Shown: positions 6,798 to 21,862 of the stretch, piece after piece
Numbering within the stretch: position 1 is the stretch's first letter
Layout of the letters: each line of letters starts with the position of its first letter
Origin: a virus
DNA length: 34,896 nucleotides
IMG/VR virus record: IMGVR_UViG_3300046028_010857
Location: 1 to 34,896 of that record
Strand: one strand, 5' to 3'
Made by a program: the position numbers and the translations under genes
Notes under the pieces: generated by a model
Database searches by the model: none
What the model was told of the DNA's origin: nothing
Seen by the model: only the letters and a program-made list of their open reading frames with translations

Positions 6798-7727
6798 TCA
6801 AAGGTCAAGTATGCGTTTGGCCAACTGGTGGGTAATGGCATCGGCACCGGCTTCGCGCAATAGGCTCTGTATAGCTCCGCTCAACTCGCCAATGTTGCGG
6901 TAGTGGTCAAATAGCAGTTGTTGTACCTTGCGGTCGGCAATGCCCACGGTATTGCATATATCGGTTACGTCCACCATTTCCATCGGCACCAACTTCTTAA
7001 TGCCACCTTCTTTTATGCGGCGGTATATCTGCGGAAACGAGCGGCGCATACGGTCGCTTTTGGCGCGCAAGGTGTGTTCAAATTCATTGGCACCTATTAC
7101 CACCATACCACAATGCCCTTTAAGCGCATCCATCATGGTCTTAATACTGTCCCATGCGCCATCTTTAAGGTTCTCGCCCTCGTCAATTATCAATAGCGGT
7201 TGGCTGTCGCGTTTAAGGCGGTTCACACAGGCCTTGCGTATCTCGCTGGTGGCACCCGTTACCCGAAGGTTTAGGCTTTCGGCCAGTTCCACCATAAAGC
7301 TCTTGCTCGTTAGGTCGCCACTACAGCGCACCAAGTATGTTTCTTGTGGGCATAATTGCTTGTATCGTTCGGCTGTGTATGTTTTGCCAGCACCGGTGCC
7401 ACCATCAATGCACACGGGCATACGGTGGCCGCGACACTCGGTAAAGGTTTGCACCATGTACTGGTAGTTTATGGTCTCCAAATGTCCCCACGCCTGCGCG
7501 GTGGGCGCATAGCCGCAAGCCTTAGCAATGGCGGCAAAGTATTTATTGTCCAGCGACACCAATTTGTTACCAGCTGGCACCTCGTTCCATTTACCGTTAA
7601 GCATGTGGCTTAAATAGCTTGGGTTGATGCCCGCTAAATCTGAAAAGGCTTTATTGCTAATGCCTTTATCGGTAATGTACGCCGCTGCGGCGGTTACAAT
7701 GTGCTGTTTTTGGGTTTCGTTGAGCAT
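6798..7727 (-). CDS. MuB-like AAA+ ATPase, transposition target activator
   Basis: A 309-residue protein of the usual MuB length. Residues 1-75 form an N-terminal helix-turn-helix (SNKAFSDLAGINPSYLSHMLNGKW). An AAA+ core follows with Walker A GGTGAGKT at 109-116 and Walker B LLIIDEGE at 178-185, then an arginine-rich DRMRRSFPQIYRRI segment near 225-238 and a helical C-terminal domain. In Mu, MuB coats target DNA in an ATP-dependent way, delivers it to the transposase and provides target immunity. It lies 35 bases downstream of the transposase. Its leader contains two copies of ACCATTTAA. Confidence 0.92.
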   Translation of the reverse strand: MLNETQKQHIVTAAAAYITDKGISNKAFSDLAGINPSYLSHMLNGKWNEVPAGNKLVSLDNKYFAAIAKACGYAPTAQAWGHLETINYQYMVQTFTECRGHRMPVCIDGGTGAGKTYTAERYKQLCPQETYLVRCSGDLTSKSFMVELAESLNLRVTGATSEIRKACVNRLKRDSQPLLIIDEGENLKDGAWDSIKTMMDALKGHCGMVVIGANEFEHTLRAKSDRMRRSFPQIYRRIKEGGIKKLVPMEMVDVTDICNTVGIADRKVQQLLFDHYRNIGELSGAIQSLLREAGADAITHQLAKRILDL

Positions 7728-10318: not shown

Positions 10319-10390
10319 CGATTTGTTGTTTTACCTTGTGCGATAATTACACACAAGATACAAACAAGTTTGTGTAAAAGTCAAACAAAA
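10319..10390. promoter_or_regulatory. Immunity control region with operators and divergent promoters
   Basis: This gap separates the Ner-like gene (minus) from the repressor (plus). It holds two clear dyads: CTTGTG (10335-10340) with CACAAG (10352-10357) across 11 bp, and ACAAAC-AA-GTTTGT (10360-10373). The half-site (A/C)ACAAG recurs, as expected for a repressor/Cro operator. On the minus strand a TATCTTGT at about 10354-10361 with TTTG 21 bases upstream resembles the Bacteroidota promoter layout (TTTG, then TAnnTTTG), though the -7 match is imperfect. Confidence 0.6.
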
Positions 10391-11161
10391 TTGAAAACAT
10401 TTTCAAACAGGTTAGAATTTTTAATGGGTCAGAAGGGTATTAAAAGCCCTGCTGAACTGGCTGCTGCATTGAATTATAATAGCGGCGAGAAGCTTTATAG
10501 ATTATTTAGAAATGAAGACAATAAGCCATCAACCGACATTCTAACTGATTTGTCAAACTTGTTTGAGGGTGTAAATTTAACCTGGTTGCTAACCGGTAAT
10601 GGTCCAAAATTTATCGAAGAGCCGGTGGCAGAAAGTGCTGTCAATAATATTGCTGAAGACCGGGCCGTGTACCAAATAGCTAACCATAACAATGGCCGAA
10701 TTATTTACATACCGGCCCGTGCAGAGGCTGGTTTGTTGGCTGGGTATGGCAATGAGAATTTTTTGGACCGCATGGAAAAGATGTGGGTGCCAGGCTTTGA
10801 GGATTGCGACTTGGCGGTAATGGCCAGTGGCGATAGCATGTATGGCAACATTTGCAATGGCGACCTTATCCTGTGCAAGCAGTTGCCCGATTTTAGCTAT
10901 GTGCGGTGGGGTGAGCCTTATGTGCTGTTGGCCGACGATGGCGTGGTGGTAAAGTATGTGCACCAAAGTCCAAGTGGTAAAGATTATTTTGAGCTGCGCA
11001 GCGAAAATAGCCACTACCCGCCCTACGAAATTAAGCGTAAGCGCATCCGCTCTATTTACTTGGTAAAAGGCAAAGTGAGCAAGAATGTGGGTAGCCAGCG
11101 CGACGATTGGCGAGAGGCCGTAACGGCCCAGTTATTAGAGATACAACGCAAAATACAATGA
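10370..11161 (+). CDS. LexA-like (S24) phage repressor
   Basis: Up to 263 residues. An N-terminal XRE-type helix-turn-helix (FSNRLEFLMGQKGIKSPAELAAALNY, residues 11-36) is followed by an S24 self-cleavage domain: the Ala-Gly cleavage site in ARAEAGLL (A120-G121), the catalytic serine in SGDSMYGN (S156) and the lysine in VVVKYVH (K195). It should keep the prophage silent and be inactivated through RecA after DNA damage. No ATG fits the domain start. TTG at 10370 or TTG at 10391 must be used, because the first ATG (10424) would remove the first helix. It faces the Ner-like gene and overlaps the next gene by ATGA. Confidence 0.9.
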   Translation: MCKSQTKLKTFSNRLEFLMGQKGIKSPAELAAALNYNSGEKLYRLFRNEDNKPSTDILTDLSNLFEGVNLTWLLTGNGPKFIEEPVAESAVNNIAEDRAVYQIANHNNGRIIYIPARAEAGLLAGYGNENFLDRMEKMWVPGFEDCDLAVMASGDSMYGNICNGDLILCKQLPDFSYVRWGEPYVLLADDGVVVKYVHQSPSGKDYFELRSENSHYPPYEIKRKRIRSIYLVKGKVSKNVGSQRDDWREAVTAQLLEIQRKIQ

Positions 11162-12371: not shown

Positions 12372-12905
12372 TTATGGTATCGCAGCATTAACCACTAAAC
12401 TAGCCTGTTTAGTAATAAGTTCCAACATGGCAGTGTAGTCATATATGGTACAACTAAACTCTTGCACGGTTACCAATCGGTTGCTAAGTGTGTGGTCGGG
12501 CGTTATCTGCGTGCGGCTCATGGTGTTGATAACTATTCTATCATTGGCTGTGCCAGCGAGGGCCGCAAAGGCCGCTAATAAGCTTAAATAGAAGTCGCGG
12601 CCGTTCAAAACCTTGTACACGTCCTCGCACATCTGCAAGTGGTTTACAGTGGCATCGGTTATGCGGCTGCCATCGTCATACACGCACTCTTGCGCAACAT
12701 GTATGCGCACACGGGTTTGCAACAATTGTGCATTGCCGCCCAATTGCTCCGTTGGTATTTCCATAAACTCAATGTACACGCCATCGCTCACATGCCAAAC
12801 GCTTTCACCGTTTTGTAAATACTGGCCCAGCCAATAATCAACCTCGCCCACCGTTACGGCGGCTTCAAGCGTTTGCTTCAATATCAAGTATGCGTTCTTA
12901 ATCAT
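12372..12905 (-). CDS. Probable tail terminator (Mu gp37-type position)
   Basis: A 177-residue protein directly after gpG, with a 4-base overlap. It looks like a small alpha/beta protein: a first helix (AYLILKQTLEAAV), strands with the pattern ...TRVRIHVAQECVYDD, a long helix with LQMCEDVYKVLNG and a final strand VTVQEFSCTIYDY. This order suits the tail-terminator/neck fold found after gpG-type genes in tailed phages. The call rests mainly on gene order. It would cap the tail tube and join it to the head. Confidence 0.55.
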   Translation of the reverse strand: MIKNAYLILKQTLEAAVTVGEVDYWLGQYLQNGESVWHVSDGVYIEFMEIPTEQLGGNAQLLQTRVRIHVAQECVYDDGSRITDATVNHLQMCEDVYKVLNGRDFYLSLLAAFAALAGTANDRIVINTMSRTQITPDHTLSNRLVTVQEFSCTIYDYTAMLELITKQASLVVNAAIP

Positions 12906-13351
12906 GGTTTTAAGCGGTTAAGGCGTTGTTCAACTTTTCTGTTTATGGCCGTCACTATGTCGGGTGTCAGTTCAAGGTATTTGCGTTGCGGCATTTGCGT
13001 GGTGCTGCCATTTTTGCGCGGTATACCCCCGCCCGTTTGGTGTATTTGGGCATACGGTATCTGTTGTCCGTCCACGCCCACGGTTACAGTGCCGTTGGCT
13101 ATCCAATAGCGCACCGCAGCTTTAAGGTTTCCCCGGTCGGTCAGTGTCTTTTTGTTGCGAGGGTTTTTTTTCTTGGGTTTCCATTTATCAATGCTGCCAT
13201 TGCGTATGATACCTTCCACCTCAAAATTGCGCCTTGCACCTCGCACCGCTTCCACGCCAATAATGGTTAACAGTTCGCTTTGCTCAATCCGTTTAAGGTT
13301 GGCTGCCAGTTTCCGTATATCGGCACCGAGCCGGTTTATATTTCTTGACAT
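12902..13351 (-). CDS. Mu gpG-like virion morphogenesis protein
   Basis: A 149-residue protein of the phage virion morphogenesis family (Phage_tail_S, PF05069). It has the family order: an N-terminal helical section, a basic KPKKKNPRNKKTLTDRGNLKAAV segment (residues 58-80), a strand with GTVTVGVDGQQIPYAQIHQTGG and a C-terminal RKYLELT. Proteins of this family complete the tail and connect it to the head. It is coupled to the downstream tail-terminator gene. A 97-bp gap to gpF holds a small convergent RNA gene. Confidence 0.8.
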   Translation of the reverse strand: MSRNINRLGADIRKLAANLKRIEQSELLTIIGVEAVRGARRNFEVEGIIRNGSIDKWKPKKKNPRNKKTLTDRGNLKAAVRYWIANGTVTVGVDGQQIPYAQIHQTGGGIPRKNGSTTQMPQRKYLELTPDIVTAINRKVEQRLNRLKP

Positions 13352-13375
13352 TTGGCATTTTGTTTGCTACATTTG
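13345..13375 (+). promoter_or_regulatory. Bacteroidota-type promoter for a small RNA
   Basis: TACATTTG at 13368-13375 is a perfect match to the TAnnTTTG -7 element, and TTG at 13345-13347 lies 20 bases upstream, the spacing of the -33 element. It points right, against the genes on both sides. A start site near 13382 is predicted. Confidence 0.65.
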
Positions 13376-13381
13376 CAATAG

Positions 13382-13450
13382 AGCTTGAAAAGGATACGGC
13401 AGATAACGCACAACGTTATGAGATGCGCCACGAATTTTCGGGCTTTTTTT
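13382..13450 (+). ncRNA. Predicted small RNA, convergent to the head operon
   Basis: A stretch of about 69 nt lies between a perfect TAnnTTTG promoter and an intrinsic terminator. It contains one hairpin (ATAACG 13403-13408, CACAA loop, CGTTAT 13414-13419) and then the terminator stem. No start codon with a usable frame is seen. The RNA is antisense to the gpF-gpG intergenic region and to the last codon of gpF. It may tune late head-gene mRNA or act in trans. No known RNA family is recognised. Confidence 0.6.
13427..13450 (+). terminator. Intrinsic terminator of the small RNA
   Basis: GCC (13427-13429) pairs with GGC (13441-13443) and CGAA with TTCG inside it, with A13430 bulged. Seven T residues (13444-13450) follow directly. 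The T-run overlaps the stop codon of the gpF gene on the other strand. Confidence 0.7.
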
Positions 13451-14660
13451 ATTTACGGTAGAGCAATATGTTTATCCGCCACTGATTTACTCGTGCCCAA
13501 TTGTACGCTTGCTGAATACTCAACACAGTGCCCTCGGCATCCACCAACACCGCAATCGGTAATTGCCCTTTATAGTATTTGATGTATGCCGTTACCCATC
13601 GTTTAGCAAATTTAGCACCCTCTACATATCCGCTCCATACTTCGTCAGGCTTTTCAATCACTGCTTTTAGTTCTTTACCATACGCATAGCGGTTTTGCTT
13701 TACAATTTTACCGGCTAGTGCTTTTGGCACTTTTGGGGTTATGTTTAGGGCTGCTGGCGGTTTCAACTCAAAGGTTTCACCACCGTTTAATTGTTCGTTA
13801 AACCATGTTTCAAACTCTTCTTTGCTCACAAATTGCACTGGTGTGCCGCCTGTTATGTCTTCGGCTTTTGGCAATCCATAGTCTGATGCCTTGAGTTGTT
13901 TGCCCTTGGGCAATGATTGGAAATAGTCGTGTGCATCGCTAAACACCACACCGCTCTTGCCAGGGTTTACCTTAAACCCATCGGCCACCTTGGCGTTTTT
14001 GGCCGCCACACTTACCGCTTCGTCGGTGGTTATAGTGCCAGTAACATCGGCCTCGGTCAGTTGCTCGGTGTAGCAACGGCAGTTCCAGCCGTTAGGTGGG
14101 TAAAAGTTGTCCCAAAACCCATCGCTCACCTTGCGCACAATACCTTCCAGGGCCGCATGTTCCGGGCGCACGTTGTTGTCGGCTTCGGTGCGGTATTTCA
14201 AGTATGGGTATACGCTGGCCGCTTGTACGTTTCGTTGCCATTCGCTACTCATTATGCCACTGCGTATTACGTTTTGCCGCTCGGTGGCCAACCAGGTAAG
14301 GTTATAGTTATCTACCACTTGCAGTGCCTCTCGTTTAAATTCGGCAAAACTGCGCACGCGGCCACCATCGGTTACCAAGTCGCGAAGTTGTTTGTACATG
14401 GCCATGCTCTTGGCACCGCTAAAAGCATACAGGTTGTTTTGTACCGTGTACAAAAACGCTTCGTCGGGCACATCAAAGTTTGCCTTAAAATCGCCGAAGA
14501 GCGTTTGTGCCAATTGTAGGTACATATCACTGTCAATGCCTTTGATTGTCCCATCATGTATGCCTTTCAATAACGCATCGGCCCTATCTTTAAAACTTAG
14601 TGTTGTACTAATCGGAGTAGAAGCATCTGCGCTATGCCCCGTGCAGCACATGTGCGCCAA
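13449..14660 (-). CDS. gpF-like head morphogenesis protein with C-terminal nuclease-like domain
   Basis: A 403-residue protein. Residues about 20-205 match the Mu gpF/SPP1 gp7 minor head family, with the diagnostic end YPYLKYRTEADNNVRPEHAALEG..........FYPPNGWNCRC, which holds the GW.CRC motif. The last 98 residues (306-403) form a separate domain: GKELKAVIEKPDEVWSGY..., YIKYYKG, LPIAVLVDAEGTVLSIQQAYNW and a final INILLYRK. This layout resembles the PBECR group (phage Barnase/EndoU/ColicinE5-D/RelE-like nucleases) found at the ends of phage head proteins. The domain could act as an RNase delivered with the DNA. Fourteen bases from the portal stop. Confidence 0.78.
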   Translation of the reverse strand: MAHMCCTGHSADASTPISTTLSFKDRADALLKGIHDGTIKGIDSDMYLQLAQTLFGDFKANFDVPDEAFLYTVQNNLYAFSGAKSMAMYKQLRDLVTDGGRVRSFAEFKREALQVVDNYNLTWLATERQNVIRSGIMSSEWQRNVQAASVYPYLKYRTEADNNVRPEHAALEGIVRKVSDGFWDNFYPPNGWNCRCYTEQLTEADVTGTITTDEAVSVAAKNAKVADGFKVNPGKSGVVFSDAHDYFQSLPKGKQLKASDYGLPKAEDITGGTPVQFVSKEEFETWFNEQLNGGETFELKPPAALNITPKVPKALAGKIVKQNRYAYGKELKAVIEKPDEVWSGYVEGAKFAKRWVTAYIKYYKGQLPIAVLVDAEGTVLSIQQAYNWARVNQWRINILLYRK

Positions 14661-21761: not shown

Positions 21762-21834
21762 CGCGGGATGGCGCAGATGGTAGCGCGACGGGCTCATAAT
21801 CCGTAGGTCGGGGGTTCGAGTCCCTCTCCCGCAA
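21762..21834 (+). tRNA. tRNA-Met (CAU), initiator-like
   Basis: A complete 73-nt cloverleaf. Acceptor CGCGGGA pairs with TCCCGCA except for the first pair, which is C1:A72, the unpaired end that marks bacterial initiator tRNA. D-stem GCGC/GCGC; anticodon stem ACGGG/TCCGT with loop CTCATAA and anticodon CAT at 21795-21797; T-arm GGGGG-TTCGAGT-CCCTC; discriminator A. The anticodon stem has G29:C41 and G30:C40 but G31:U39 in place of the third G:C. C11:G24 is elongator-like. CCA is not encoded. It is in the sense direction of the late genes, between the lysis gene and the endolysin. An Ile (k2C) tRNA with the same anticodon is less likely because of C1:A72. Confidence 0.9.
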
Positions 21835-21862
21835 CATAACCCCAAAACGAGAGCGCAGAGGC

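Follow-up and report, generated by a model that had tools for sequence, protein, structure and literature searches.

A short DNA element with a promoter at one end and a terminator at the other, pointing against the two phage head genes between which it lies, raises the question of what it encodes and whom it serves. The element is found in IMG/VR virus record IMGVR_UViG_3300046028_010857, positions 1-34,896, all of which was analysed here and is called the window; by its gene content it derives from a Mu-like, probably temperate phage of Bacteroidetes. The cassette sits in the 97-nucleotide (nt) gap between F, which encodes a MuF head protein, and G, both on the minus strand. We are highly confident that the cassette constitutes a genuine RNA gene and that it goes with the C-terminal tail of F. 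As to its role, the answer we favour, though we hold it evenly poised, is that the RNA would be expressed in the lysogen as an immunity factor against a nuclease that F carries in the virion, in the manner of a type III antitoxin.

The initial annotation had proposed that the gap between F and G houses an independent RNA gene, transcribed rightward from a promoter of host type that might work in the lysogen, and both the layout in the window and its recurrence in many phages support this reading well. The promoter is present as described, TTGACA at 13345-13350 and TACATTTG at 13368-13375 giving the TTG-N20-TAnnTTTG spacing, with TAnnTTTG at -7 and TTG/TTTG near -33 as in the primary-sigma consensus of Bacteroides and Flavobacterium (PMC7366714); the same letters can alternatively be read as TTGACA-17-TACATT with an extended -10 TG. 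The predicted RNA is structured and does end in a stem followed by seven Ts (13444-13450), a run that overlaps the F stop codon (13449-13451). The inner hairpin annotated at 13403-13419 is found (13403-13408/13414-13419), as is a pairing that the initial annotation had not seen, between the 5' end (13381-13391) and the terminator arm (13435-13445). Only 1/200 shuffles of this RNA folds equally well (z -2.8). Both flanking genes run leftward, as stated, and the RNA contains no complete reading frame, a TTG-started one of 65 amino acids reading on through the terminator; nor does the 97-nt gap hold a complete small open reading frame (ORF) of useful length of the kind that provides immunity to MuF toxins. 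The F-G region of the window has no match to an Rfam covariance model at gathering thresholds, and that of five other loci (L014, L078, L039, L074 and L073) has no credible one at lenient E-values.

Could such an arrangement be fortuitous? The form TTGAC-N17-19-TAnnTTTG occurs once in the window, at the cassette, where shuffles give 0.1, and the looser TTG-N19-21-TAnnTTTG three times where 2.6 are expected, so that the promoter by itself is within chance. Promoter, hairpin and T-run at 45-110 nt are found together once in the window and in 22/300 whole-window shuffles, for which reason the case for the cassette rests on comparison. A chance meeting of promoter-like and terminator-like sequence has that shuffle count in its favour; the position exactly inside the F-G gap makes it less likely, and it is strongly disfavoured by the recurrence of this arrangement, at this very site and in association with the tail, in many distantly related prophages. 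As a separate observation, TAnnTTTG is rarer than expected across the window (1-34896; 17 found, 34 in shuffles).

Since searches with its G, F or portal protein, with the RNA pattern and with DNA gave no close relative of the window, distant relatives were compared. Loci, denoted by L numbers, came from terminase- and transposase-based matches, from Bacteroidota genomes drawn by a MuF family search and from named phages; the stretch after the MuF domain was measured in each, and at least 150 residues counted as a tail. Among 83 MuF loci, 33/50 tailed and 0/33 tailless ones have an antisense TAnnTTTG at 40-117 nt from the F stop (p 7e-11), whereas the sense-strand control gives 1/50 and 2/33. 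In the first set of loci, the strict promoter had been present in 24 of 41 tailed loci versus one of 17 tailless. The space between promoter and F stop is filled by the predicted RNA in most motif-bearing tailed loci, the RNA mostly ending at or near that stop, which in most lies 50-82 nt from the -7 element; layout and position of the cassette thereby recur far from the window. Several of the 17 tailed exceptions to the motif are understood. Longer RNAs explain L039 and L078, two RNAs lie further out in L057, and an antisense ORF stands in place of or beside the RNA in L014 and L076, while L083, L087 and L096, all with nuclease tails, have promoters that appear by eye to be sigma-70-like, followed by structured RNA and terminators. 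With nuclease tails this slot downstream of F usually holds RNA. Because many related phages share the pairing of cassette with tail and tailless ones do not, the RNA is probably an antidote that protects the phage's host cell.

Some slots hold other contents. Those of L078 (10530-10765) and L039 (2461-2680), PBECR2 phages of Porphyromonas gingivalis and a relative, carry a structured RNA of 200-240 nt with shared motifs and no Rfam match; ten P. gingivalis phage records have this long RNA, in two versions ~91% identical. The F-G gaps of L036 and L057 contain two tandem antisense RNA cassettes, as expected of accumulated orphan immunity modules; a displaced toxin remnant sought in L036 was rejected, its best match not being significant (p 0.15; mean-score p 0.011). 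Small antisense ORFs lie downstream of F in L014 (10752-11005, minus strand), where the tail is non-nuclease with an HExxH-like motif by eye, and in L076 (3761-4060, minus strand), where it is a glutamine deamidase (Pfam). One of the two has a strict Bacteroidetes promoter, and both encode candidate immunity proteins. Bacteroides phage p00 combines a glutamine-deamidase tail with an antisense ORF in the slot.

The RNAs themselves give evidence of structural constraint in one homologous pair and of turnover with the tail. Folding z scores average -4.4 across 32 RNAs, of which 27/32 are more stable than their own complement (p 7e-6), both figures including the terminator, itself strand-specific. 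Between the RNAs of L083 and L087, whose tails are 44% identical, 6/25 pairs have changed on both sides and the loops are conserved. RNA sequence is otherwise hypervariable, with few alike pairs across phages, and its similarity follows that of the tail, weakly and significantly (Mantel r 0.11, p 0.009), not that of the MuF core (r 0.03, p 0.25). L035 and L052, for example, have a core score of 0.88, a common promoter, a tail score of 0.43 and unlike RNAs. In L014 a new tail and the antisense ORF are followed by a remnant of an L004-type PBECR2 tail, its last 11 codons, and the RNA beyond is 73/81 identical to that of L004 in a block 76% identical, the signature of a displaced toxin-immunity module. 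The RNAs of L083, L087 and L088 are homologous and share the conserved stretches GGTAATGC and GGGAAAGGC...GGTCTTCCC; the L083/L087 motif had no match in viral contigs. A tRNA-mimic idea, prompted by 7-nt loops in L065, L047 and L049, was not consistent and was dropped.

What the RNA might act upon is suggested by a domain that the initial annotation overlooked. Residues 305-402 of the 403-residue F match PBECR2 (1.3e-7, above the Pfam family cut-off) in a protein that matches Phage_Mu_F at 1e-13. PBECR2 is a BECR-fold nuclease family, and proteins built in this way have been described as polymorphic toxins of the MuF kind or as phage effectors (PMC5576092, PMC5512222); the window combines the features of that class, namely MuF with a C-terminal toxin domain, a packaging module and a temperate phage. 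Where the window has PBECR2, its relatives have tails of the PD-(D/E)XK CdiA_C-like or LPD3 families, and no Pfam match to ToxN, CptN or TenpN was found among these PBECR2, CdiA_C or LPD3 tails. An RNA inhibitor is plausible because CdiA_C members include tRNases (PMC9990079). Downstream of a MuF toxin gene there is usually a small ORF to which an immunity role is ascribed (PMC5576092), and Bxa is neutralised by adjacent immunity proteins (PMC11699363).

In the mechanism that we propose, the host-type promoter, independent of the late operon, would yield a short structured RNA in the lysogen. F protein would be packed in the head and, in the way suggested for MuF toxins, its C-terminal nuclease would be carried into the next cell along with the DNA. 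The RNA would bind the cognate nuclease domain directly and block it, much as type III antitoxin RNAs do, and lysogens and producing cells would therefore be protected. Sequence comparison provides the cassette, its association with the tail, the constraint on the RNA strand in one pair, the turnover with the tail and the L014 module; we infer that the RNA is expressed in the lysogen, that the nuclease is delivered and that the RNA inhibits the protein directly. In its general form, which we regard as falling slightly short of even, the proposal is that Mu-like phages of Bacteroidetes carry RNA-cleaving toxins as fusions to a head protein and inject them, that dedicated small RNAs binding these toxins protect the phages' own lysogens, and that such RNA-based immunity to polymorphic toxins is hypervariable and exchanged along with the toxin tail.

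A number of points weigh against RNA immunity, besides the share of the terminator in the folding figures. The 83 loci are phylogenetically non-independent, the core tree offering only two independent supported contrasts, and RNA boundaries and the classes of tail and nuclease were assigned by ourselves, partly by eye or by hand. Three loci with a nuclease-type tail, L015, L048 and L072, have no visible cassette. The window RNA is without a close homologue, so that the covariation evidence comes from another family, that of L083/L087, to which the window is not closely related. The histidine conserved in most PBECR2 domains is absent from the window and from L004, and the window toxin may for this reason be weak or inactive; the structure model of its nuclease domain is unreliable (predicted local distance difference test score 43) and too poor to search, and a sequence search found no related solved structure. 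Finally, a rule that RNA shape follows nuclease fold, which held for 31/32 in the first set, was dropped when it failed in most new loci: L083, L087, L088 and L097 (PD tails, closed RNAs) and L082 and L096 (BECR tails, open RNAs) contradict it, and only L100 of the seven new loci agrees. The fold label changes five times on the core tree, with two independent well-supported pairs, both concordant in most pairings.

The initial annotation had drawn attention to the position of the RNA antisense to the late messenger RNA (mRNA). By geometry this is correct, and full complementarity to that mRNA is unavoidable from the layout. Antisense antitoxins directed at 3' ends occur in other systems, and type I-like control in cis would have the RNA pair perfectly with the F-G intercistron, where RNase III or blocked translation of G would lower leaky expression of toxin and head genes in the lysogen. 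The susC-type genes of Bacteroides offer a precedent, being repressed by cis-antisense RNAs (PMC7366714). We nevertheless consider this explanation rather unlikely, and do not take control of the late operon to be the best account of the locus, because the cassette tracks the C-terminal tail of F, mostly nuclease, and not the late operon, because similarity among the RNAs goes with that of the tail but not with that of the MuF core, because the slot can hold an antisense protein gene instead, and because in one homologous pair two-sided changes have preserved structure on the RNA strand. Selection for pairing predicts neither such changes with conserved loops on that strand nor a folding energy lower than that of the complement. 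Moreover, the RNA overlaps the F coding region little or not at all, an RNA of the L004 family persists in L014 away from its original F, and L036 and L057 have two RNAs each.

Its own promoter and terminator, its structure and its independence of the operon would also suit a regulatory RNA acting in trans, for example on host or early phage mRNAs, and placed in the toxin slot by happenstance. This we judge quite improbable, as the cassette is not seen where F is tailless and the hypervariable sequence leaves few alike pairs across phages. A promoter and terminator that outlasted the toxin-immunity module with which they were inserted, and that now serve no function, would be in keeping with the clear swapping of modules in L014 and with a window domain that lacks its conserved histidine; with promoter, structure and terminator intact in the window and at many other loci, and pairing maintained in L083/L087, such a passenger seems distinctly improbable too. 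RNA immunity, by comparison, remains the reading that we prefer.

Several known systems resemble this locus in part. Lambda OOP and P22 sar are phage cis-antisense RNAs that regulate lysis/lysogeny genes; they share with the cassette a length of ~70 nt, a promoter and terminator of their own and a position opposite a phage operon, but have no known tie to a toxin domain. DonS-type and other Bacteroides cis-antisense RNAs (PMC7366714) are alike in host phylum, promoter type and size, but oppose polysaccharide-use genes and involve no toxin. MuF toxins with immunity proteins (Jamet 2017, PMC5576092; Bxa, PMC11699363) have a C-terminal toxin on the MuF protein of a temperate phage and, immediately beyond the toxin gene, a small element whose presence is expected only alongside a toxin tail; here, however, that element is an opposite-strand RNA gene with its own host-type promoter and not a protein gene. 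The type III toxin-antitoxin systems (ToxIN, CptIN, TenpIN) provide the logic proposed here, a structured RNA neutralising a ribonuclease, and are defined by a short tandem-repeat antitoxin upstream of the toxin on the same strand, with a terminator between (PMC5086642). The window cassette is by contrast a single unit without a repeat array, downstream of F on the opposite strand, and the toxin would be a virion protein with a PBECR2, CdiA_C (PD-(D/E)XK) or LPD3 nuclease. Whereas type I toxins are small and hydrophobic, the one proposed here is a 403-residue MuF protein with PBECR2.

The surroundings of the cassette are summarised in Table 1. The window encodes a transposition ATPase, a CI-like repressor, a terminase, a Mu-type portal, MuF and G, with the terminase and portal genes adjoining F. 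The Mu B-like ATPase supports the assignment to Mu-like transposable phages and the repressor supports a temperate life style. A tRNA-Met (CAT) gene lies at 21762-21835 (plus strand) amid the phage structural genes.

Table 1. Features of the RNA cassette and of neighbouring genes in the window.
Feature	Position	Strand	Remarks
Bacteroidetes-type promoter, TTGACA...TACATTTG (TTG-N20-TAnnTTTG)	13345..13375	+	overlaps first codons of G, opposite strand
Predicted small RNA, ~65-70 nt, closed rod	13380..13450	+	start inferred from promoter spacing
Intrinsic terminator, stem GCC(A)CGA-ATTT-TCGGGC and T-run	13427..13450	+	hairpin ~-7.3 kcal/mol
Gene F, encoding the MuF head protein and its C-terminal PBECR2 nuclease domain	13449..14660	-	PF04233; proposed toxin
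Gene G, phage virion morphogenesis / neck protein	12902..13351	-	PF05069, phrog_26
CI-like repressor	10370..11161	+	phrog_4, 5e-24
Mu B-like DNA transposition ATPase	6798..7727	-	phrog_296, 1e-35

In the literature searched, which is not the whole literature, we came upon nothing that describes RNA immunity to MuF toxins. If the proposal is true, RNA antidotes would extend beyond intracellular toxin-antitoxin pairs to toxins delivered by virions, a new use of the RNA antidote, and would do so through a small-RNA family unmatched in Rfam. It would suggest why the nuclease MuF toxins of Bacteroidetes can be without an obvious immunity gene, and would place such immunity in phages across the Bacteroidetes, including those of Porphyromonas gingivalis, making the role of MuF toxins testable experimentally.
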